52,365 bases of DNA from positions 22,955 to 75,319 of the forward strand of contig JAKAXM010000011.1 in the NCBI GenBank assembly GCA_021816625.1, written 5' to 3'. The translations under genes and the position numbers were made by a program. Below are positions 34,786 to 40,720 of the stretch, piece after piece (position 1 is the stretch's first letter; every line of letters begins with the position of its first letter). The notes under the pieces were generated by a model that did no database searches, had not been told where the DNA came from, and saw nothing but the letters and a program-made list of their open reading frames with translations. Source of the stretch: Pseudomonadota bacterium (lineage in GTDB: Bacteria > Pseudomonadota > Gammaproteobacteria > Acidiferrobacterales > Acidiferrobacteraceae).

Positions 34786-36330
34786 ATGCCGCCCGCCTAC
34801 CCTAAAGGTTCCACGCTGAGTCAGCGGCGCGCCTATAAGGCGCTGCACGCGTTTTGTCTGGATCCGGCGTCCGCCGAGGCAAGCTCTGTGCTGTGCGGCT
34901 ACGCTGGGACGGGCAAGACTTGGCTCGCCGTCCACCTCATTCAGGCGGTCTGTGCCCAAGGCCTGAGGGTCGCCGTGTGCGCCCCCACGCATAAGGCGAT
35001 CGCGGTCATAAGCGCCAAACTGACCCCCTCGGCGCGCCAACGCGTCTGGTACGGTACCCTGCACGCCCTACTTGGGCTCAAGCTGCGCGAGACCCATGAG
35101 GGGGGTATGGACGCCACCTTGGATCGCAACCCGAAGACCTTGTATTTCGAATCCTATGATGTCGTCTTCATCGACGAATCCAGTATGGTGGGCCCCGATC
35201 TCTTGGCCTACATCGAGCGGTTTCAAAGGGGCGCGCGCACGCGCGTCGTCTATATCGGCGACCCCGGGCAACTGGCGCCGGTCGTGCAACGGGCGCGCCC
35301 GGAGGGCTCAGCGCAGGGGCAGCTCGCCTTGGCGGAAGAACCGGCATCGGTGCCGCCGGTCTTCGCACGTTCTGCGCCGCGCTATGATTTGCAGGAGATC
35401 GTTCGGCAAAAATCGACCGGACGCCCGCATCCCATCGTCCAGTTCGCGCAGGAGATCCGCCGCTATATCGAACACGAAGCGGACGGGGTCTTCGACCCCG
35501 CCGCCATAAGCGCCTACCTCGCCGCGCACGCCGCCGACATGGTGGTCGTGCGCAAGGCCCAGGCCCGCGACGTGGCGGCGGGCGCCATAAGCTTGCGTAA
35601 GCGCCGTCCCGCGAAGGATATCCGGGTGTTGGCGTGGCGCAACCGGGTGGTCGATACCCACAATCGTCTCATTCATGAGGGGCTCGCATCCCTCTATGGA
35701 CACGCGGCCACCGCCACATCCGCGCACGCGCCGTTCTGGCCCGGCGAGACCATCATCGCGCGCGAGACCCTCTATGGCTTCCGGGCGCAGGCGGCCATGG
35801 CGCAACAGGACGCGAAGACTTGGGAGGAGGCGCTGGCGCCCCTCGAGACCGCCCAACAGCGAAAGGACCCGGAACGTACGCGCCGCGACGCGCTCGTTGC
35901 GCTCATAGCCAATAATACCGAGATGGTAGTCCGCAGCTGCGAGCCGTGGCGCCATCCCTACCTCGATATCGACAGCTACCGCATAGAAGCGCAGGAGGCC
36001 GCCGACGCGGAGGCGATCACCTTGTTCGTCGCCGCCGACCCGCGCGCCTATGACCGGCTGGTGCGCAAGACCTGGGACGGATATCGCAGCAGCGCAAGCC
36101 GCCGGCCCGAGGACTTCCGTCGGGCCTGGGCCGTGACCCGGGCCTGCGCGCCGGTCATGCACGGCTACGCCATGACCGCGCACAAGGCCCAGGGCAGTAC
36201 CTTTGATTACGCGCTGATCGATGTCGCCGATCTCGCCTACATGATCGCCGCCGCCGGCGCTGACGACTACCACCGCGCGCTGTACGTCGCGGTGACCCGG
36301 GCGGCAGAACAGGTGTGGCTCTGCCTCTAA
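34786..36330 (+). CDS. Superfamily 1 DNA helicase (RecD/Dda-like)
   Basis: This ATP-driven DNA helicase has 514 residues. Walker A is GYAGTGKT (about 39-46), Ia is APTHKA near 67, Walker B is VVFIDESSM near 126 and motif III is YIGDPGQLAPV near 154. IV is in LAWRNRVVDTHN near 285. Motif V is MTAHKAQGSTFDYALID near 463, and VI is YVAVTRAAEQ near 501. This is the RecD2/Dda subgroup of 5'-3' helicases. An extra region at about 340-440 (charged, helical, no motifs) lies between IV and V. No recB or recC is nearby, so it is a stand-alone helicase. Nothing suggests phage origin. Confidence 0.9.
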   Translation: MPPAYPKGSTLSQRRAYKALHAFCLDPASAEASSVLCGYAGTGKTWLAVHLIQAVCAQGLRVAVCAPTHKAIAVISAKLTPSARQRVWYGTLHALLGLKLRETHEGGMDATLDRNPKTLYFESYDVVFIDESSMVGPDLLAYIERFQRGARTRVVYIGDPGQLAPVVQRARPEGSAQGQLALAEEPASVPPVFARSAPRYDLQEIVRQKSTGRPHPIVQFAQEIRRYIEHEADGVFDPAAISAYLAAHAADMVVVRKAQARDVAAGAISLRKRRPAKDIRVLAWRNRVVDTHNRLIHEGLASLYGHAATATSAHAPFWPGETIIARETLYGFRAQAAMAQQDAKTWEEALAPLETAQQRKDPERTRRDALVALIANNTEMVVRSCEPWRHPYLDIDSYRIEAQEAADAEAITLFVAADPRAYDRLVRKTWDGYRSSASRRPEDFRRAWAVTRACAPVMHGYAMTAHKAQGSTFDYALIDVADLAYMIAAAGADDYHRALYVAVTRAAEQVWLCL

Positions 36331-36452: not shown

Positions 36453-36481
36453 TGTAACCTTTTGTCGAGCTCGCTCGTCTC
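36453..36481 (+). promoter_or_regulatory. Predicted ECF-type promoter of the CBM48/sigma cluster
   Basis: TGTAACC (36453-36459), a 16-base spacer and CGTCTC (36476-36481) match the AAC-type -35 and CGTC-type -10 seen for many ECF sigma factors. It lies about 57 bases before the first gene of a cluster that encodes an ECF sigma factor, so autoregulation is likely. A GGCC-AACC-GGCC hairpin follows in the leader. Confidence 0.6.
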
Positions 36482-36537
36482 ATGGGTCGTTAGAAGACCG
36501 GCCAACCGGCCGTGTCACCCATCGAGGAGTCGACGAA

Positions 36538-37236
36538 ATGAGGAAGATCACGGGTGTGTTCGTAGCGGGCCTCATGGCGGCAGGGCCGGCATGGGCCGGG
36601 GCCACCGCCACGGCGGCGTCCCTGACGCGCCTATTGACGCATCAGGGTTTCTCCCAGGAAACGGCATTGCGTCTGGCGCAGACGGCTCGGCGTTTTTATA
36701 AGGGCGGGGCGGGCGTACGGCTCGCGCACTCTCTCGATACCTTGCCCAAGCTTCCTCAGACTGACTATCGCGGGGCCGCGCTCACGCCGCAAGCCGCCGC
36801 CGGCTACGGTCTCGTCTTGAGCGCCGCCCTGCGGCGGGGGCTTGCCCCTGCGGCCGTGGTCGCCACGGGCCAGGCCTTTGTACAGGGTGTCGAGGCCGGC
36901 GGGTCCCCGGGGGCGACGGCCCAACGGGTGCTGCAGGGGCTCGCGGAGGGCCTGCGCGGAACGGCGCTCGCGGCCGTCGCCCGCCGCACGGCGACAGACG
37001 TCCATGCTGATCGGTCGCCGACCGGTGATGCCGACGGCATCGGCGCCGTGGCGCCCGGCCGCGCGCTAAGTTCGGGCCCGTTGGGGCGCCCGACCGGCCT
37101 TGCGCCGACGCCGGTCGCGGTGGGGGCCCCCGTTACCATGGGCCCCGGGGCCGGGGCCTTCAGGGGACCGATGACCGGCGCCTCGCCGGTAGCCCGGGGT
37201 TCGATGGGCGGATCTGGGGGCATGGGGCAGCCCTGA
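36538..37236 (+). CDS. Secreted helical protein with Gly/Pro/Met-rich tail (cluster gene 1)
   Basis: The protein has 232 residues. A signal peptide covers about 1-20 (cleavage near AWA-GA). Residues 25-150 are helical, with a repeated pattern of the type GLAPAAVVATGQAFVQGVEAG, i.e. a Gly-hydrophobic-Pro turn followed by a helix and a Gly-rich turn. Residues 150-232 are rich in Gly, Pro, Ala and Met and end with a GGSGGMGQP tail. I do not recognise a named domain. The last gene of the cluster encodes a protein of the same layout. GAGGAG lies nine bases before the ATG, and an ECF-type promoter stands upstream, so it is probably a target of the cluster sigma factor. Confidence 0.7.
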   Translation: MRKITGVFVAGLMAAGPAWAGATATAASLTRLLTHQGFSQETALRLAQTARRFYKGGAGVRLAHSLDTLPKLPQTDYRGAALTPQAAAGYGLVLSAALRRGLAPAAVVATGQAFVQGVEAGGSPGATAQRVLQGLAEGLRGTALAAVARRTATDVHADRSPTGDADGIGAVAPGRALSSGPLGRPTGLAPTPVAVGAPVTMGPGAGAFRGPMTGASPVARGSMGGSGGMGQP

Positions 37237-37297
37237 AGCTTGGGCAGCGCGAGGGCTAACGCCCCCGCGCCCATCACCTAAGAGGGGGAACGGGATC

Positions 37298-37591
37298 ATG
37301 ACAATCGTGAGCCAGAGAAAGGCCGGGGCGGCGCTCGCGGCCGGTCTTTATGGGGGACTTGCAGGGGCGGCCATCCTCGCGGGGCCGGCGGCGGTTTTGC
37401 ATCGCCAGATCGCCTCACCGACGAGTGGGTATTTTTCGCCAAGGACCCATGGCAACGGTGCGGGCGGGGTGCTGCGCCGGGCATTCGGGGGCTACGCCGC
37501 CAATGGTTTCATGTCCCCCTCGGGACAGCTTGTAACGAGTCCGCAACAGGCCTTGCCGGGGTCATCGGGTGCTATGTCCGGAAGGCCGTGA
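37298..37591 (+). CDS. Small predicted membrane or exported protein (cluster gene 2)
   Basis: The protein has 97 residues. A hydrophobic Ala/Gly-rich segment (about 9-33) follows a short basic start (SQRKAG), so it is a signal anchor or signal peptide. The rest is Gly/Ser/Pro-rich and low in complexity, without Cys. I do not recognise a family. GAGGGGG is placed well before the ATG. It sits between a secreted helical protein and a predicted barrel on the same strand. Confidence 0.6.
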   Translation: MTIVSQRKAGAALAAGLYGGLAGAAILAGPAAVLHRQIASPTSGYFSPRTHGNGAGGVLRRAFGGYAANGFMSPSGQLVTSPQQALPGSSGAMSGRP

Positions 37592-37619
37592 GCCATGTTC
37601 GTTTAGGTAAGGGGGTGTT

Positions 37620-38375
37620 GTGAGGGGGCGGATTATGGGGTTTATCGCCGCTAGCGTCCTGGCAGGTGTTGGCGGCGCGCGGGCAACGATGTTCGGGGGC
37701 GTGGACGCCGGGGCGCTTTGGGAAAGCAATTTCGTGGGGGCCCCGCCCGGAACGAACCCGCTGCCGGTATTCATGGGGATCTATTCCGGATACTTGGGCG
37801 GCTACACGGGCTTCGATAAGGACCGCGGCGCGTGGGTGGGTTCGGTGAACTTCGAGGCCGACCGTCTCCGTCAGTACACGTCCCTGGATGATAACGCCTA
37901 CGGGGGTTCGGCGGGGGTTTTTCATGACTTGGGCAACGAGGCATCGGTTTTGGCTACGGTGGGAGGTGACCTCCTGCGTTATAGCAACAGCATTCGCGAT
38001 CTTGCGATTTATGTGGGACGGATTCATTTCAAGGAAGGGGGGCAGACGCGCTGGTTTGGTGAGACCGTCGAGTATGACGACGGACAAGGCACCGCGGCCT
38101 TCAATACCTACCAAGGATATATAGGGACCGTGGCGTTCAATTGGAAGCCCATTAAGTCCGATGTCGTGACCGTATCGGTCGCGCATGCCGTCGATCGTTA
38201 CGATGTGGCGACGGCGGGCCTGCGTACCTCGGACGCCGGGAGTCTGGGATGGTTGCAAGAACTTGGACACAAGATTTATGTCCGCGCCTCCCTCAGCCGA
38301 GAGTACGTCGCGGTGGCCTCTGGCCCGCACTTTTACGCGACGCTCATAGGGGCAGGATTGGGCGTTTCGTTCTAG
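37620..38375 (+). CDS. Predicted outer-membrane beta-barrel protein (cluster gene 3)
   Basis: The protein has 251 residues. A signal peptide covers about 1-22 (cleavage near ARA-TM). The mature part alternates amphipathic strands with Gly/Asp-rich turns, has many Tyr and Trp, no Cys, and ends with AGLGVSF, a barrel-like last strand. It would form about ten to twelve strands. I cannot name the family. GTG 37620 is taken; ATG 37635 also has a good ribosome site (GAGGGGG) but would leave no basic start before the hydrophobic core. It is probably part of the envelope complex or regulon of this cluster. Confidence 0.68.
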   Translation: MRGRIMGFIAASVLAGVGGARATMFGGVDAGALWESNFVGAPPGTNPLPVFMGIYSGYLGGYTGFDKDRGAWVGSVNFEADRLRQYTSLDDNAYGGSAGVFHDLGNEASVLATVGGDLLRYSNSIRDLAIYVGRIHFKEGGQTRWFGETVEYDDGQGTAAFNTYQGYIGTVAFNWKPIKSDVVTVSVAHAVDRYDVATAGLRTSDAGSLGWLQELGHKIYVRASLSREYVAVASGPHFYATLIGAGLGVSF

Positions 38376-38412
38376 GCTTTTCGGCCTGCGGGGGGATGTT
38401 TATAGTGACGGC

Positions 38413-38751
38413 ATGGAAGCGCGCGCGCATCGGCGGAAGGTATCGAGGACGGTTTTGGCAGTGTGTGGCGGGTTCGCGCTGGGGCTTGCCTGCGCCCGGG
38501 GTCGCGAGGTGCTGTTTCGGATCCATGCCCCGGTCGCAGCCGCGGTGTCTGTATGCGGGAGCTTTCGAGACTGGCGCTGCGTGCCGTTGGTGCGTGGGCC
38601 ACGGGGGGAATTTTGGGGCCGCTTAGCGGTGTCGCCGGGCCTTTATGAGTACGGGTTTCGCGTCGATGGGCGCTGGCGGTTGGGCCGGGGCGCCGCCCAG
38701 GTGGACGACGGCTTCGGCGGCCGCAACGATCTTTTGCTCGTACGGCGTTGA
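38413..38751 (+). CDS. Exported CBM48-like (isoamylase N-terminal/E-set) domain protein (cluster gene 4)
   Basis: The protein has 112 residues. A signal segment (about 10-28) precedes a single E-set domain: VLFRIHAPVAAAVSVCGSFRDW (33-54 in pieces: FRIHAP, VSVCGSFRDW) and GLYEYGFRVDGRW near 81, closing with a GFGGRNDLL turn. This is the pattern of CBM48/AMPK-type glycogen-binding domains, where the GSFxxW loop binds alpha-glucan. The paired anti-sigma factor two genes downstream carries the same domain. It may be a periplasmic partner or decoy for the same ligand. Sugar binding is inferred from the fold, not shown. Confidence 0.75.
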   Translation: MEARAHRRKVSRTVLAVCGGFALGLACARGREVLFRIHAPVAAAVSVCGSFRDWRCVPLVRGPRGEFWGRLAVSPGLYEYGFRVDGRWRLGRGAAQVDDGFGGRNDLLLVRR

Positions 38752-38818
38752 GCTGTCGCCGCAGGCCCGGAGGGTCCGGGCGATGGCGGGCCGGGCCGCT
38801 GCGGAGCGGGCGTAAGTC

Positions 38819-39397
38819 GTGGAGGAGTCGGGACATGAGGGTCGAGACGAGGAGCCGGCATGGATCGCGCGCTGCCGGCGCGGGGAGACGGCCGCTTTTC
38901 GGCCCCTCGTCGAACGCTATGCGCGCATGGTTCATACCGTGATCTCGCGTCTTGCGCCGGCGGCTGATGTCGACGATCTCGCCCAGCAGACCTTTCTGGC
39001 AGCCTTCGAGCGCCTCGACCAATACCGGGAGGGTGCGCGGTTTTCGACCTGGCTGTGCCAGATCGCGATCAACAAGGCCCGCGATGAGTACCGGGCGGCG
39101 CGGCGCCGGCCGGAGCTTGGGGATGCGGAGTGTCTCGATGAGCATCGCGAGGATGGACCCGAGGATCAGGCCGTCCGGCAGGAAAACGGGGGCGCAGTGG
39201 TACGCGCGCTTGGCCGGCTTGCGGGACCGGATCGCGAACTACTGGTTTTGAAATACGTCATGGAGGAGAGCTTCGAGACGGTGGCAGAGATCCTGGGTAT
39301 CACGGTGGGAGCGGCCAAGGTCCGCGCGCTGCGCGCCCGGGAACGATTTCGGGAGATCCTGAGTAAGGACGAACGATATGGCAAGCGAGACGGATAA
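38819..39397 (+). CDS. ECF RNA polymerase sigma factor (cluster gene 5)
   Basis: The protein has 192 residues. Region 2 spans about 15-85: AFRPLVERYARMVH, VDDLAQQTFLAAFERLDQYRE and FSTWLCQIAINKARD. Region 4 spans about 130-190, with ELLVLKYVMEESFETVAEIL then GITVGAAKVRALRARERF (helix-turn-helix). No region 1.1 or 3. GTG 38819 is the only in-frame start before region 2; the strong GGAGG-ATG at 38821-38837 is out of frame. The gene overlaps the anti-sigma gene by 20 bp. The upstream cluster promoter is the likely target. It is distinct from the RpoE encoded 18 kb to the left. Confidence 0.92.
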   Translation: MEESGHEGRDEEPAWIARCRRGETAAFRPLVERYARMVHTVISRLAPAADVDDLAQQTFLAAFERLDQYREGARFSTWLCQIAINKARDEYRAARRRPELGDAECLDEHREDGPEDQAVRQENGGAVVRALGRLAGPDRELLVLKYVMEESFETVAEILGITVGAAKVRALRARERFREILSKDERYGKRDG

Positions 39398-39890
39398 GCG
39401 TCTGACGGACGCAGCGCTTGATGCGGGCCTTAGGGCCTTGGCGGCGCCACCCATGGCCGCCGATTTTGCCGACCGCGTCATGGATCGCATCGGGCAGTCC
39501 CCGCGGTGCGCATGGCGTCGGTGGCCGCGGCGCTGGGCGGTAGCGGCCATGGTGATGGTAGGGGCGGGGGCCGCGCTCGTGGCTGTCATGGTGCGGCCGG
39601 CGGTCCCGGCGGGGGCACGGCTCGTGCGTTTCGTGTTGCGCAGGCCCGGGGCGACGCAAGTCGCTTTGGCGGGGAGCTTCAATGATTGGGGCCGGCGCGT
39701 GGCGCTGCGGGCGCGGGGCCATGGCCTATGGAGTGTACGGCTGCCGCTCAAGGCCGGACGCTATACCTATGTATTTGTGGTCAATGGCCACGAGGTCATC
39801 CCGGATCCGCACGCAGAGGCCTATCGGCCGGACGGCTTTGGGGGCGAGAATTCCGTAATCGTCGTGAACGGCCCGCGGGAGGTTGCGTGA
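39378..39890 (+). CDS. Membrane anti-sigma factor fused to a periplasmic CBM48-like domain (cluster gene 6)
   Basis: The protein has 170 residues. The cytoplasmic part (1-48) contains LTDAALDAGLRALAAPPM and ADFADRVMDRI, short amphipathic helices suited to bind a sigma factor; no zinc-binding HxxxCxxC is present. One membrane helix lies at about 52-72. The periplasmic part (83-165) is an E-set/CBM48 domain with VRFVLRRP, VALAGSFNDWG, GRYTYVFVVNG and DGFGGENSVIVV. The GSFNDW loop is the usual glucan-contact site. It overlaps the ECF sigma gene by 20 bp, the standard sigma/anti-sigma arrangement. The likely role is to hold the sigma factor until a periplasmic polymer or sugar binds or leaves. 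That regulatory mode is inference. Confidence 0.85.
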   Translation: MASETDKRLTDAALDAGLRALAAPPMAADFADRVMDRIGQSPRCAWRRWPRRWAVAAMVMVGAGAALVAVMVRPAVPAGARLVRFVLRRPGATQVALAGSFNDWGRRVALRARGHGLWSVRLPLKAGRYTYVFVVNGHEVIPDPHAEAYRPDGFGGENSVIVVNGPREVA

Positions 39891-40720
39891 GGCGCCCCAG
39901 GATAGTGATCCTGTTGTGCGTGGTCGCAAGCCTGCTCGCGCCCCTGCGGACGTGGGCGGCGCAGGTGTCGCTAGCGAGCGTACAGCGCGCGGGGGTGCCG
40001 CCCCCTCGGGCGCGGCGTCTGCTACGCGCCGCCGACAGGGCCCGTGTCCCGCCCCCGATCCTGCGCGCCTGGGTCCAGATCCTGGCGGATCTACACCGCG
40101 ACCATCTGCCCACGTCGCTTGCGACCGGAGAGATCTTCGAGGGGCTCATGAAGGGCATAGCCCCGGGCCGGATCACCGACGCCATGCAGGCCTACGCGCG
40201 GGCCTTGCAGCGCGCGGACCTGTTTTTGCAAAGCCACGTGCGCCACCTTGCCCCCGGTACGCGTCCCCAAGCGCAGCGGCAGGCCTTGGCGGGTCTCGTC
40301 ATTGCGCAGCGCGTGGGCTTGGGGCCGCGGCGCCTTACGCAGCTTTTGGGGCCGCGGCGGTTGTCGCTTGGGCGTCTTGCGGCCTATGTCCAGGTGGCGG
40401 CCGATCTGCGTTCCTGGGGTATGGGTCGCGGGCGTGTCGTCCGGATCCTACGCCGCGCGCGCCGGGCCGGGGTGCCAGCCAGGGCGGTATTGCGGCTCGA
40501 TGCGCGTCTTGCGCAGGCGCAAGCGCGCGGACATATAGGGCAGCATTTGGGTCGCGAACTAGAGCGCGGCCTTGGGCTTCACTCGGCGCTCGGTCCGGCC
40601 ATGGGGCCGCGCGGGGGGCTCATGGGTGGTCCTGGTGGGGGTATGGGGATGGGCGGACCGGGCGGCACCATGGGACCGTCTGCTGCGGGTCCCGGCGGCA
40701 TGGGCGGTGGGCACCCATAA
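39887..40720 (+). CDS. Secreted helical protein with Gly/Met-rich tail (cluster gene 7)
   Basis: The protein has 277 residues. A signal peptide covers about 1-25 (cleavage near TWA-AQ). Residues 28-235 are helical and rich in Arg and Ala, with repeated turns such as RAGVPPPRARRLLRAAD and RAGVPARAVLRL (Gly-Val-Pro caps before a helix). Residues 240-277 are Gly/Met/Pro-rich and end with a GGMGGGHP tail. It resembles cluster gene 1 in layout. GTG 39887 overlaps the anti-sigma stop (GTGA), so it is coupled to that gene. The tail might mediate surface or matrix attachment; no family is recognised. It converges with uup. Confidence 0.7.
   Translation: MRRPRIVILLCVVASLLAPLRTWAAQVSLASVQRAGVPPPRARRLLRAADRARVPPPILRAWVQILADLHRDHLPTSLATGEIFEGLMKGIAPGRITDAMQAYARALQRADLFLQSHVRHLAPGTRPQAQRQALAGLVIAQRVGLGPRRLTQLLGPRRLSLGRLAAYVQVAADLRSWGMGRGRVVRILRRARRAGVPARAVLRLDARLAQAQARGHIGQHLGRELERGLGLHSALGPAMGPRGGLMGGPGGGMGMGGPGGTMGPSAAGPGGMGGGHP

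Follow-up and report, generated by a model that had tools for sequence, protein, structure and literature searches.

A predicted ECF sigma/anti-sigma operon with an extracytoplasmic CBM48 domain in Acidiferrobacteraceae and its relatives in distant bacteria

In the sigma E/RseA/RseB system, a sigma factor of the extracytoplasmic function (ECF) type is paired with a single-pass anti-sigma factor and a secreted periplasmic partner, the output lies in the envelope, and the system is autoregulated. RseB is beta-rich, and RseA is not known to carry a domain of carbohydrate-binding module (CBM) family 48 (CBM48). In the RsgI/SigI systems of Clostridium thermocellum the anti-sigma factor is a membrane protein whose extracytoplasmic sensor can be a CBM, as described in passages of PMC12203970. 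The glycogen-binding domain of the AMPK beta-subunit belongs to the AMPK1_CBM/CBM48 sequence family, and the same family is met here as the predicted outer part of a bacterial membrane protein. This protein, the putative anti-sigma factor P6, is encoded in a seven-gene operon between the genes for an ECF sigma factor (P5) and a secreted helical protein (P7), in a 52,365-nucleotide stretch (the window) of an Acidiferrobacteraceae genome (assembly GCA_021816625.1, contig JAKAXM010000011.1). Gene content, gene order, conservation, domain identity, promoter motif and co-occurrence, all obtained by computation, make it likely that the operon is an autoregulated ECF sigma/anti-sigma system of envelope signalling, the Acidiferrobacter form of a widespread system.

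The features of sigma E/RseA/RseB listed above have their predicted counterparts in the window. P7 differs from RseB in being modelled as all-alpha; it has no Pfam match. In the present system a CBM48 is either fused to the barrel or encoded adjacent to it. With RsgI/SigI (passages of PMC12203970) the window shares the pairing of a sigma factor with a membrane anti-sigma factor, putative in the window, whose outer domain is of a carbohydrate-binding-module type. The same passages place RsgI/SigI in Bacilli and Clostridia, with CBM3, CBM42, PA14 and other sensors, a trans-wall region and control of the cellulosome, and contain no helical third protein, whereas the window system has P7. Neither a SigI-type sigma factor nor an RsgI N-terminal domain was among the Pfam and NCBIfam hits of P5 and P6 (for P5, the best 25 of 100 NCBIfam hits). 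A preliminary description of this DNA had matched the locus to no characterised system, and literature searches, which did not cover the main ECF reclassification, likewise found no published description of a sigma/anti-sigma pair with CBM48, AMPK1_CBM or DUF4382. The words carbohydrate, glycogen and CBM are absent from the main texts of PMC8103513 and PMC7406223. The system apparently represents a form of ECF/anti-sigma envelope signalling not described before, in which a third, secreted component is conserved; sigma factors of the P5 type may have an existing group number in the ECF reclassification.

Sigma factor, putative anti-sigma factor, P7 and the predicted promoter

A Pfam and open reading frame (ORF) survey places seven ORFs on one strand at 36538-40720, with a predicted promoter ahead of them at 36453; coordinates and translations bear out the seven same-strand genes of the preliminary description, as they do its overlaps among the last three (20 bases between P5 and P6, 4 bases between P6 and P7). 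P5 (38819..39397, + strand), which had been named an ECF sigma factor, is short (192 aa) and contains both region 2 and region 4 of Sigma70 (Pfam Sigma70_r2 7e-16, r4_2 1e-9; TIGR02937 also above cut-off), and this identity draws in addition on an 8-row alignment and a sigma tree. P6 (39378..39890, + strand) is a putative membrane anti-sigma factor with one transmembrane-like segment by hydropathy (residues 54-72), followed by the predicted extracytoplasmic CBM48; such a segment is found in 83/87 anti-sigmas of the family. An ECF gene encoded with a gene for a single-pass membrane protein is the arrangement of an ECF/anti-sigma pair.

Both P6 and the product of the fourth ORF, P4, exceed the Pfam cut-offs for AMPK1_CBM (5e-10 and 2e-9, respectively) and for CBM_48, and they are thus members of the CBM48/AMPK glycogen-binding family by sequence. 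Among PDB sequences, the P6 profile matches pullulanase 5ot1 (1e-11) and AMPK-beta2 2f15 (6e-5). The CBM48-like domain that had been proposed outside the membrane in the anti-sigma factor, with an E-set fold, is therefore a CBM48/AMPK-beta match at the sequence level, and the lone CBM48-like protein described at ORF4 holds as well. Class I anti-sigma factors (ASDI) commonly carry zinc motifs, according to parts of PMC7406223. Several P6 relatives share this character, with N-terminal zf-HC2 matches above the Pfam cut-off in L072 and below it in L066, L067 and L070; P6 differs in its short N-terminus, for which Pfam gave no zf-HC2 match.

P7 (39887..40720, + strand) is a secreted, all-helical protein, as judged from an AlphaFold model and locus comparison. 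The model, built from 48 sequences, is all alpha with a predicted local distance difference test (pLDDT) score of 85, and an EG-x-x-K motif is kept in 48/48, 25/26 and 8/8 sequences of the family. No PDB sequence matched P7 at E <0.001, and Pfam hits of the P7 family were scattered, each in at most 2/48 members. In a search for fold relatives, the best VIA rows were designed helical repeats (Z 9.6 to 8.3), a level common for helical proteins, and no relationship was drawn.

In the mechanism proposed for the operon, P6 would lie in the inner membrane and hold P5 inactive via its short cytoplasmic part, and the periplasmic CBM48 of P6 together with secreted P7 would read some state of the periplasm or outer membrane. 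Upon a signal P6 would let go of P5, presumably by proteolysis, and P5 would transcribe its own operon from the GTAACC/CGTC promoter. The output would be more of the sensor parts along with outer parts, namely the barrel P3, the exported CBM48 protein P4 and the secreted proteins P1 and P2. We infer the anti-sigma activity and topology of P6, the release of P5 and the part of P7 as regulatory partner from the computed evidence.

The promoter (36453..36479, + strand) has the form TGTAACC-N16-CGTC, equal to GTAAC-N17-CGTC, and is the predicted target of P5. It is the sole exact match in the 2.19-Mb genome, in which a reversed control pattern has three. The motif recurs with the same spacing in 6/6 upstream regions (the window's own and those of five relatives) despite divergence of their flanks; the ECF-type promoter proposed at the head of the operon is upheld by this conservation. 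A relative from another genus has a second copy immediately ahead of its sigma gene. To judge by these DNA motifs, the operon is apparently autoregulated by P5.

Relatives in Acidiferrobacteraceae and distant bacteria

A clear P6 orthologue was found in 8/60 genomes searched, own genome included (7/14 in the genus and 1/4 in the rest of the family), each with a second CBM48 about 0.9 kb upstream. One of the orthologue-bearing contigs is deposited as Acidiferrobacter sp. All seven genes are present in order in the window and four relatives; in two more the locus is truncated by a contig end. In the other-genus relative the flanks are different and six genes were found, all but P2.

The core of ECF sigma factor, CBM48 anti-sigma factor and P7 recurs in genomes of the Balneolia class, the Deferrisomatales phylum, Acidobacteria, Leptospiraceae and Lentisphaerae. 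Scanning a genome collection with the anti-sigma alignment gave 35 loci, 30 of them outside Acidiferrobacteraceae. Ten of these 30 encode a CBM48 anti-sigma factor, and a P7 relative adjoins it in 10/10 and a sigma gene in nine; in L066 the contig begins after the expected position of the sigma gene. The other 20 were set aside: their CBM48 lies in long or lone proteins, and neither a sigma factor nor P7 was found. The preliminary description had asked whether the neighbours are conserved with the anti-sigma factor, and they are kept with it both in Acidiferrobacteraceae and in distant loci. It had also taken P7, its second secreted helical protein, for output. That P7 is mere output is given up here, because it accompanies the anti-sigma factor where other neighbours change; with a relative adjoining nearly every CBM48 anti-sigma factor, it is probably not just output.

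The further neighbours differ among distant loci. Two Balneolia-type metagenome-assembled genomes (MAGs) and the Bacteroidetes MAG KatS3mg041 have the order sigma factor, anti-sigma factor, an ORF ending in CBM48, and P7, and one of the Balneolia-type CBM48-ending ORFs also matches beta-barrel families. In Leptospiraceae the arrangement is close to that of the window, with one gene for a lone CBM48 and another for a protein that looks barrel-like by eye and has no Pfam match. Multihaem cytochromes with MtrC/MtrF-like domains adjoin the trio in L067 and the Acidobacteria MAG L072. Among the matches listed for 398 genomes of Pseudomonadota, the N-terminal part of the anti-sigma factor was matched only in the window's own genome; all others listed begin no earlier than model position 76, mostly in proteins of at least 700 aa or in lone small ones. 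The long CBM48 proteins (at least 700 aa) are probably glycogen enzymes.

The class of the Balneolia genome, which we take to be GTDB Rhodothermia, was searched in 244 genomes. The anti-sigma profile is matched at 1e-15 in 142 genomes and at 6e-33, the cut-off used for Balneolia-class anti-sigmas, in 55; the remaining matches listed begin no earlier than model position 84, which lies within the CBM48 or a short way ahead of it. One of the 55, G511, is cut by a contig end to the CBM48, and 54 loci were examined. The fourth gene in this class is a barrel fused to a second CBM48, and all four genes are present in 47/54 loci; six of the seven incomplete loci lack a part at a contig end, and in one the barrel-CBM48 gene is frameshifted. 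P7 is found in 60 of the 244 genomes, 53 with and 7 without the anti-sigma factor, two have the anti-sigma factor alone, both with the locus near a contig end, and 182 have neither (Fisher p 3e-43, without correction for kinship).

Within the phylum to which the Deferrisomatales genome belongs, 23/297 genomes match the anti-sigma profile at 1e-25. Three of the 23 loci were among those already covered; the 20 further ones have P7 in 19 and a sigma gene in 18, L246 being cut by a contig end. Next to the trio, 11/20 of these loci have an adjacent protein with at least four CXXCH motifs (L240-L246, L250, L252, L255, L259), which hints, from gene neighbourhood, at control of surface electron transfer. 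In L249, L251 and L253 an extra CBM48 protein is encoded immediately ahead of the sigma gene.

GTAAC-N16-CGTC stands ahead of 39/50 Balneolia-class sigma genes (at most 5 in ten shuffles), with the same two boxes as the Acidiferrobacteraceae promoter and a spacing one base shorter. The 54 loci contain 97 such sites; the other spacings between 8 and 25 have 0-6 sites each. The sites precede the sigma gene (40), one lipoprotein cluster (35), P7 (5), other ORFs (8) or none (9). The lipoprotein cluster is present in 40/54 loci, and the two members tested are DUF4382 proteins.

Accompanying proteins and flanking genes

Pfam gave no family for P1, P2 and P7 and no convincing match for P3. P1 (36538..37236, + strand) is a secreted helical protein with a signal-peptide-like N-terminus and a Gly/Met-rich tail, and a distant P7 paralogue: its profile matches the P7 family at 96.5% and the wide P7 alignment at 82%, with plain BLASTP at 0.025. 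It is present in L031-L034 and L037. P1 and P7 orthologues often share a Met-Gly-x-Pro-like C-terminus. A second P1-like gene lies outside the operon in the own genome (contig C47, L038:5235-5774), adjoining an opposite-strand secreted ORF; neither has a Pfam match. P2 (37298..37591, + strand; 6-row alignment) has the conserved segments SP-x-x-GYFSPR and GFMSPSGQ-like, and was not found in L037. It had been called a small membrane protein, but P2 is more probably secreted, because its relatives have signal-peptide-like N-termini.

P3 (37620..38375, + strand) is predicted to be an outer-membrane barrel. Its 8-row alignment of orthologues (38-67% identity) has a C-terminal Phe in 6/8; the barrel prediction, made in the preliminary description, draws on the appearance of the sequence and on this residue, and neither PDB sequences nor Pfam gave a convincing match. 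P4 (38413..38751, + strand; Pfam AMPK1_CBM 2.1e-9) is an exported lone CBM48 protein and a homologue of the CBM48 with which the barrel fusions end (hhalign 96.5%). P3 and P4 together may be a split form of the barrel-CBM48 fusion, a reading supported for the CBM48 part only, because homology between P3 and the Balneolia-class barrel was undetected (hhalign probability 1.9). The model of a Balneolaceae fusion (pLDDT 84) has 14 strands and then the CBM48 region. Its barrel is closest to CymA (Z 20.6, root-mean-square deviation (rmsd) 3.3, 254 aligned) and second-closest to OmpG (Z 19.3, rmsd 3.6, 232 aligned).

The seven-gene set is flanked by an AAA/UvrD_C helicase and an opposite-strand two-domain ATP-binding cassette (ABC) protein, which the earlier names 'RecD-like' and 'uup' fit. 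The helicase gene (window 34786-36330) faces the operon in the window and faces away from it in L031-L034, which suggests a local inversion. As it is reversed in four relatives, the helicase is outside the operon unit, and the operon must have its own promoter.

Sensor ligand, role of P7 and meaning of the system

Several observations weigh against reading the operon as one form of a widespread autoregulated sigma/anti-sigma system. P6 has only about 53 residues in its predicted cytoplasmic part, and its matches to anti-sigma models are weak, none reaching the cut-off (NF052375, 1.4e-5, is far below it). The anti-sigma factor was not found in 7/14 genus genomes, and the system is therefore dispensable. 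Seven Balneolia-class genomes carry P7 without the anti-sigma factor, and L248 has the anti-sigma factor and P7 with no sigma factor detected. The promoter pattern has 19 matches in 18 genomes against 21 for the reversed control, and in 12 whole genomes GTAAC-N16-CGTC has 45 sites against 64; enrichment is positional, and the value of the promoter is its place, because its genome-wide count is no higher than that of the control. About 20 of the 45 sites lie outside cassettes, and 11 of these, in ten loci, were examined. Five (four loci) speak for the system, as they precede DUF4382 lipoprotein genes; one of these loci is within about 20 kb, and the other three are hundreds of kb distant or on a different contig. 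Of the remaining six sites, one is ahead of an unnamed lipoprotein gene and five do not fit. GTAAC-N16/17-CGTC was found before the sigma gene in 0/25 loci of the Deferrisomatales phylum, the other distant bacteria and the Bacteroidetes MAG L076, and the promoter is therefore not common to the whole family. In a quick tree the system-linked sigma factors cluster (5 label changes, where shuffling gives a mean of 20), though not demonstrably as one clade; the 'other' row L271 in this tree may be the sigma factor that the L066 cassette, truncated by a contig end, lacks.

Within the sigma/anti-sigma frame, three explanations concern the ligand and the role of P7. In line with the preliminary description, in which the system reads a periplasmic polysaccharide through a CBM48 domain, the anti-sigma CBM48 could bind a periplasmic or incoming alpha-glucan, with the barrel as a maltodextrin-type porin tuned to the sugar. 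Membership in the CBM48 family favours such a sensor, as does the presence of the first CBM48 tryptophan (FN-x-W-type) in 87/87 anti-sigmas and of the second (DG-x-x-W loop) in 70/87; presumably the two correspond to the sugar contacts of AMPK. The second is absent, however, in 8/8 Acidiferrobacteraceae, the window included, so that P6 has one of the two, and because of this loss glucan sensing is less likely in the window's family than across the wider family. The closest fold to the Balneolaceae barrel, the cyclodextrin porin CymA, points to sugar as well, but both CymA and OmpG are simply monomeric barrels of 14 strands as well, and for this reason no substrate can be read from the fold. 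Downstream of the cassette, and on its strand, the Balneolia-class loci L189, L192 and L202 have an alpha-amylase-family gene, but these are 3/54 only, and 11/20 Deferrisomatales-phylum loci adjoin multihaem cytochromes. Alpha-glucan is a possible ligand of P6, and a dedicated glucan sensor with its porin is somewhat unlikely.

The loss of the likely sugar-contact tryptophan in the window's genus speaks rather for a CBM48 that acts as a protein-binding E-set domain, with P7 as its partner, in a system that reports the assembly of barrels or surface proteins and not sugar, comparable to RseA/RseB with sigma E. A P7 partner is kept in nearly every locus, and barrels, lipoproteins and MtrC/MtrF-like cytochromes are encoded under the promoter or beside the trio; the aromatic residues of the CBM48 are nevertheless kept in most relatives, and such an assembly monitor is plausible at a little under an even chance. 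P1, P2 and P7 might instead be surface or matrix proteins, exported perhaps with the aid of the barrel, with the sigma factor switching on a coat and P7 as cargo. They have secretion-signal-like N-termini and Gly/Met- or Gly/Pro-rich tails, the C-terminal ends of P1 and P7 are alike, GGGPP tails occur in 34/48 Balneolia-class P7s and GG-PP stretches in 18/47 barrels, and P7 is duplicated in some Balneolia-class loci. P7 stays with the anti-sigma factor, however, beside multihaem cytochromes (barrels were not searched for there), and a coat is unlikely.

The reading as an autoregulated sigma/anti-sigma system may extend, tentatively, to a three-component signalling family of several phyla, in which an AMPK-like glycogen-binding domain outside the cytoplasm and a secreted helical protein with no Pfam entry would control an ECF sigma factor, and through it the composition of the outer membrane. 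Equally tentatively, the components so controlled would be glucan porins that bear a CBM48 themselves, lipoproteins of the DUF4382 type or surface cytochromes. The predicted promoters make the system directly testable in a culturable carrier of the cassette. One predicted regulon would give a testable function to the P7 family, the barrel-CBM48 fusions and the DUF4382 lipoproteins and, if the reading is true, the AMPK glycogen-binding fold would form the extracytoplasmic portion of a sigma-factor switch in bacteria.

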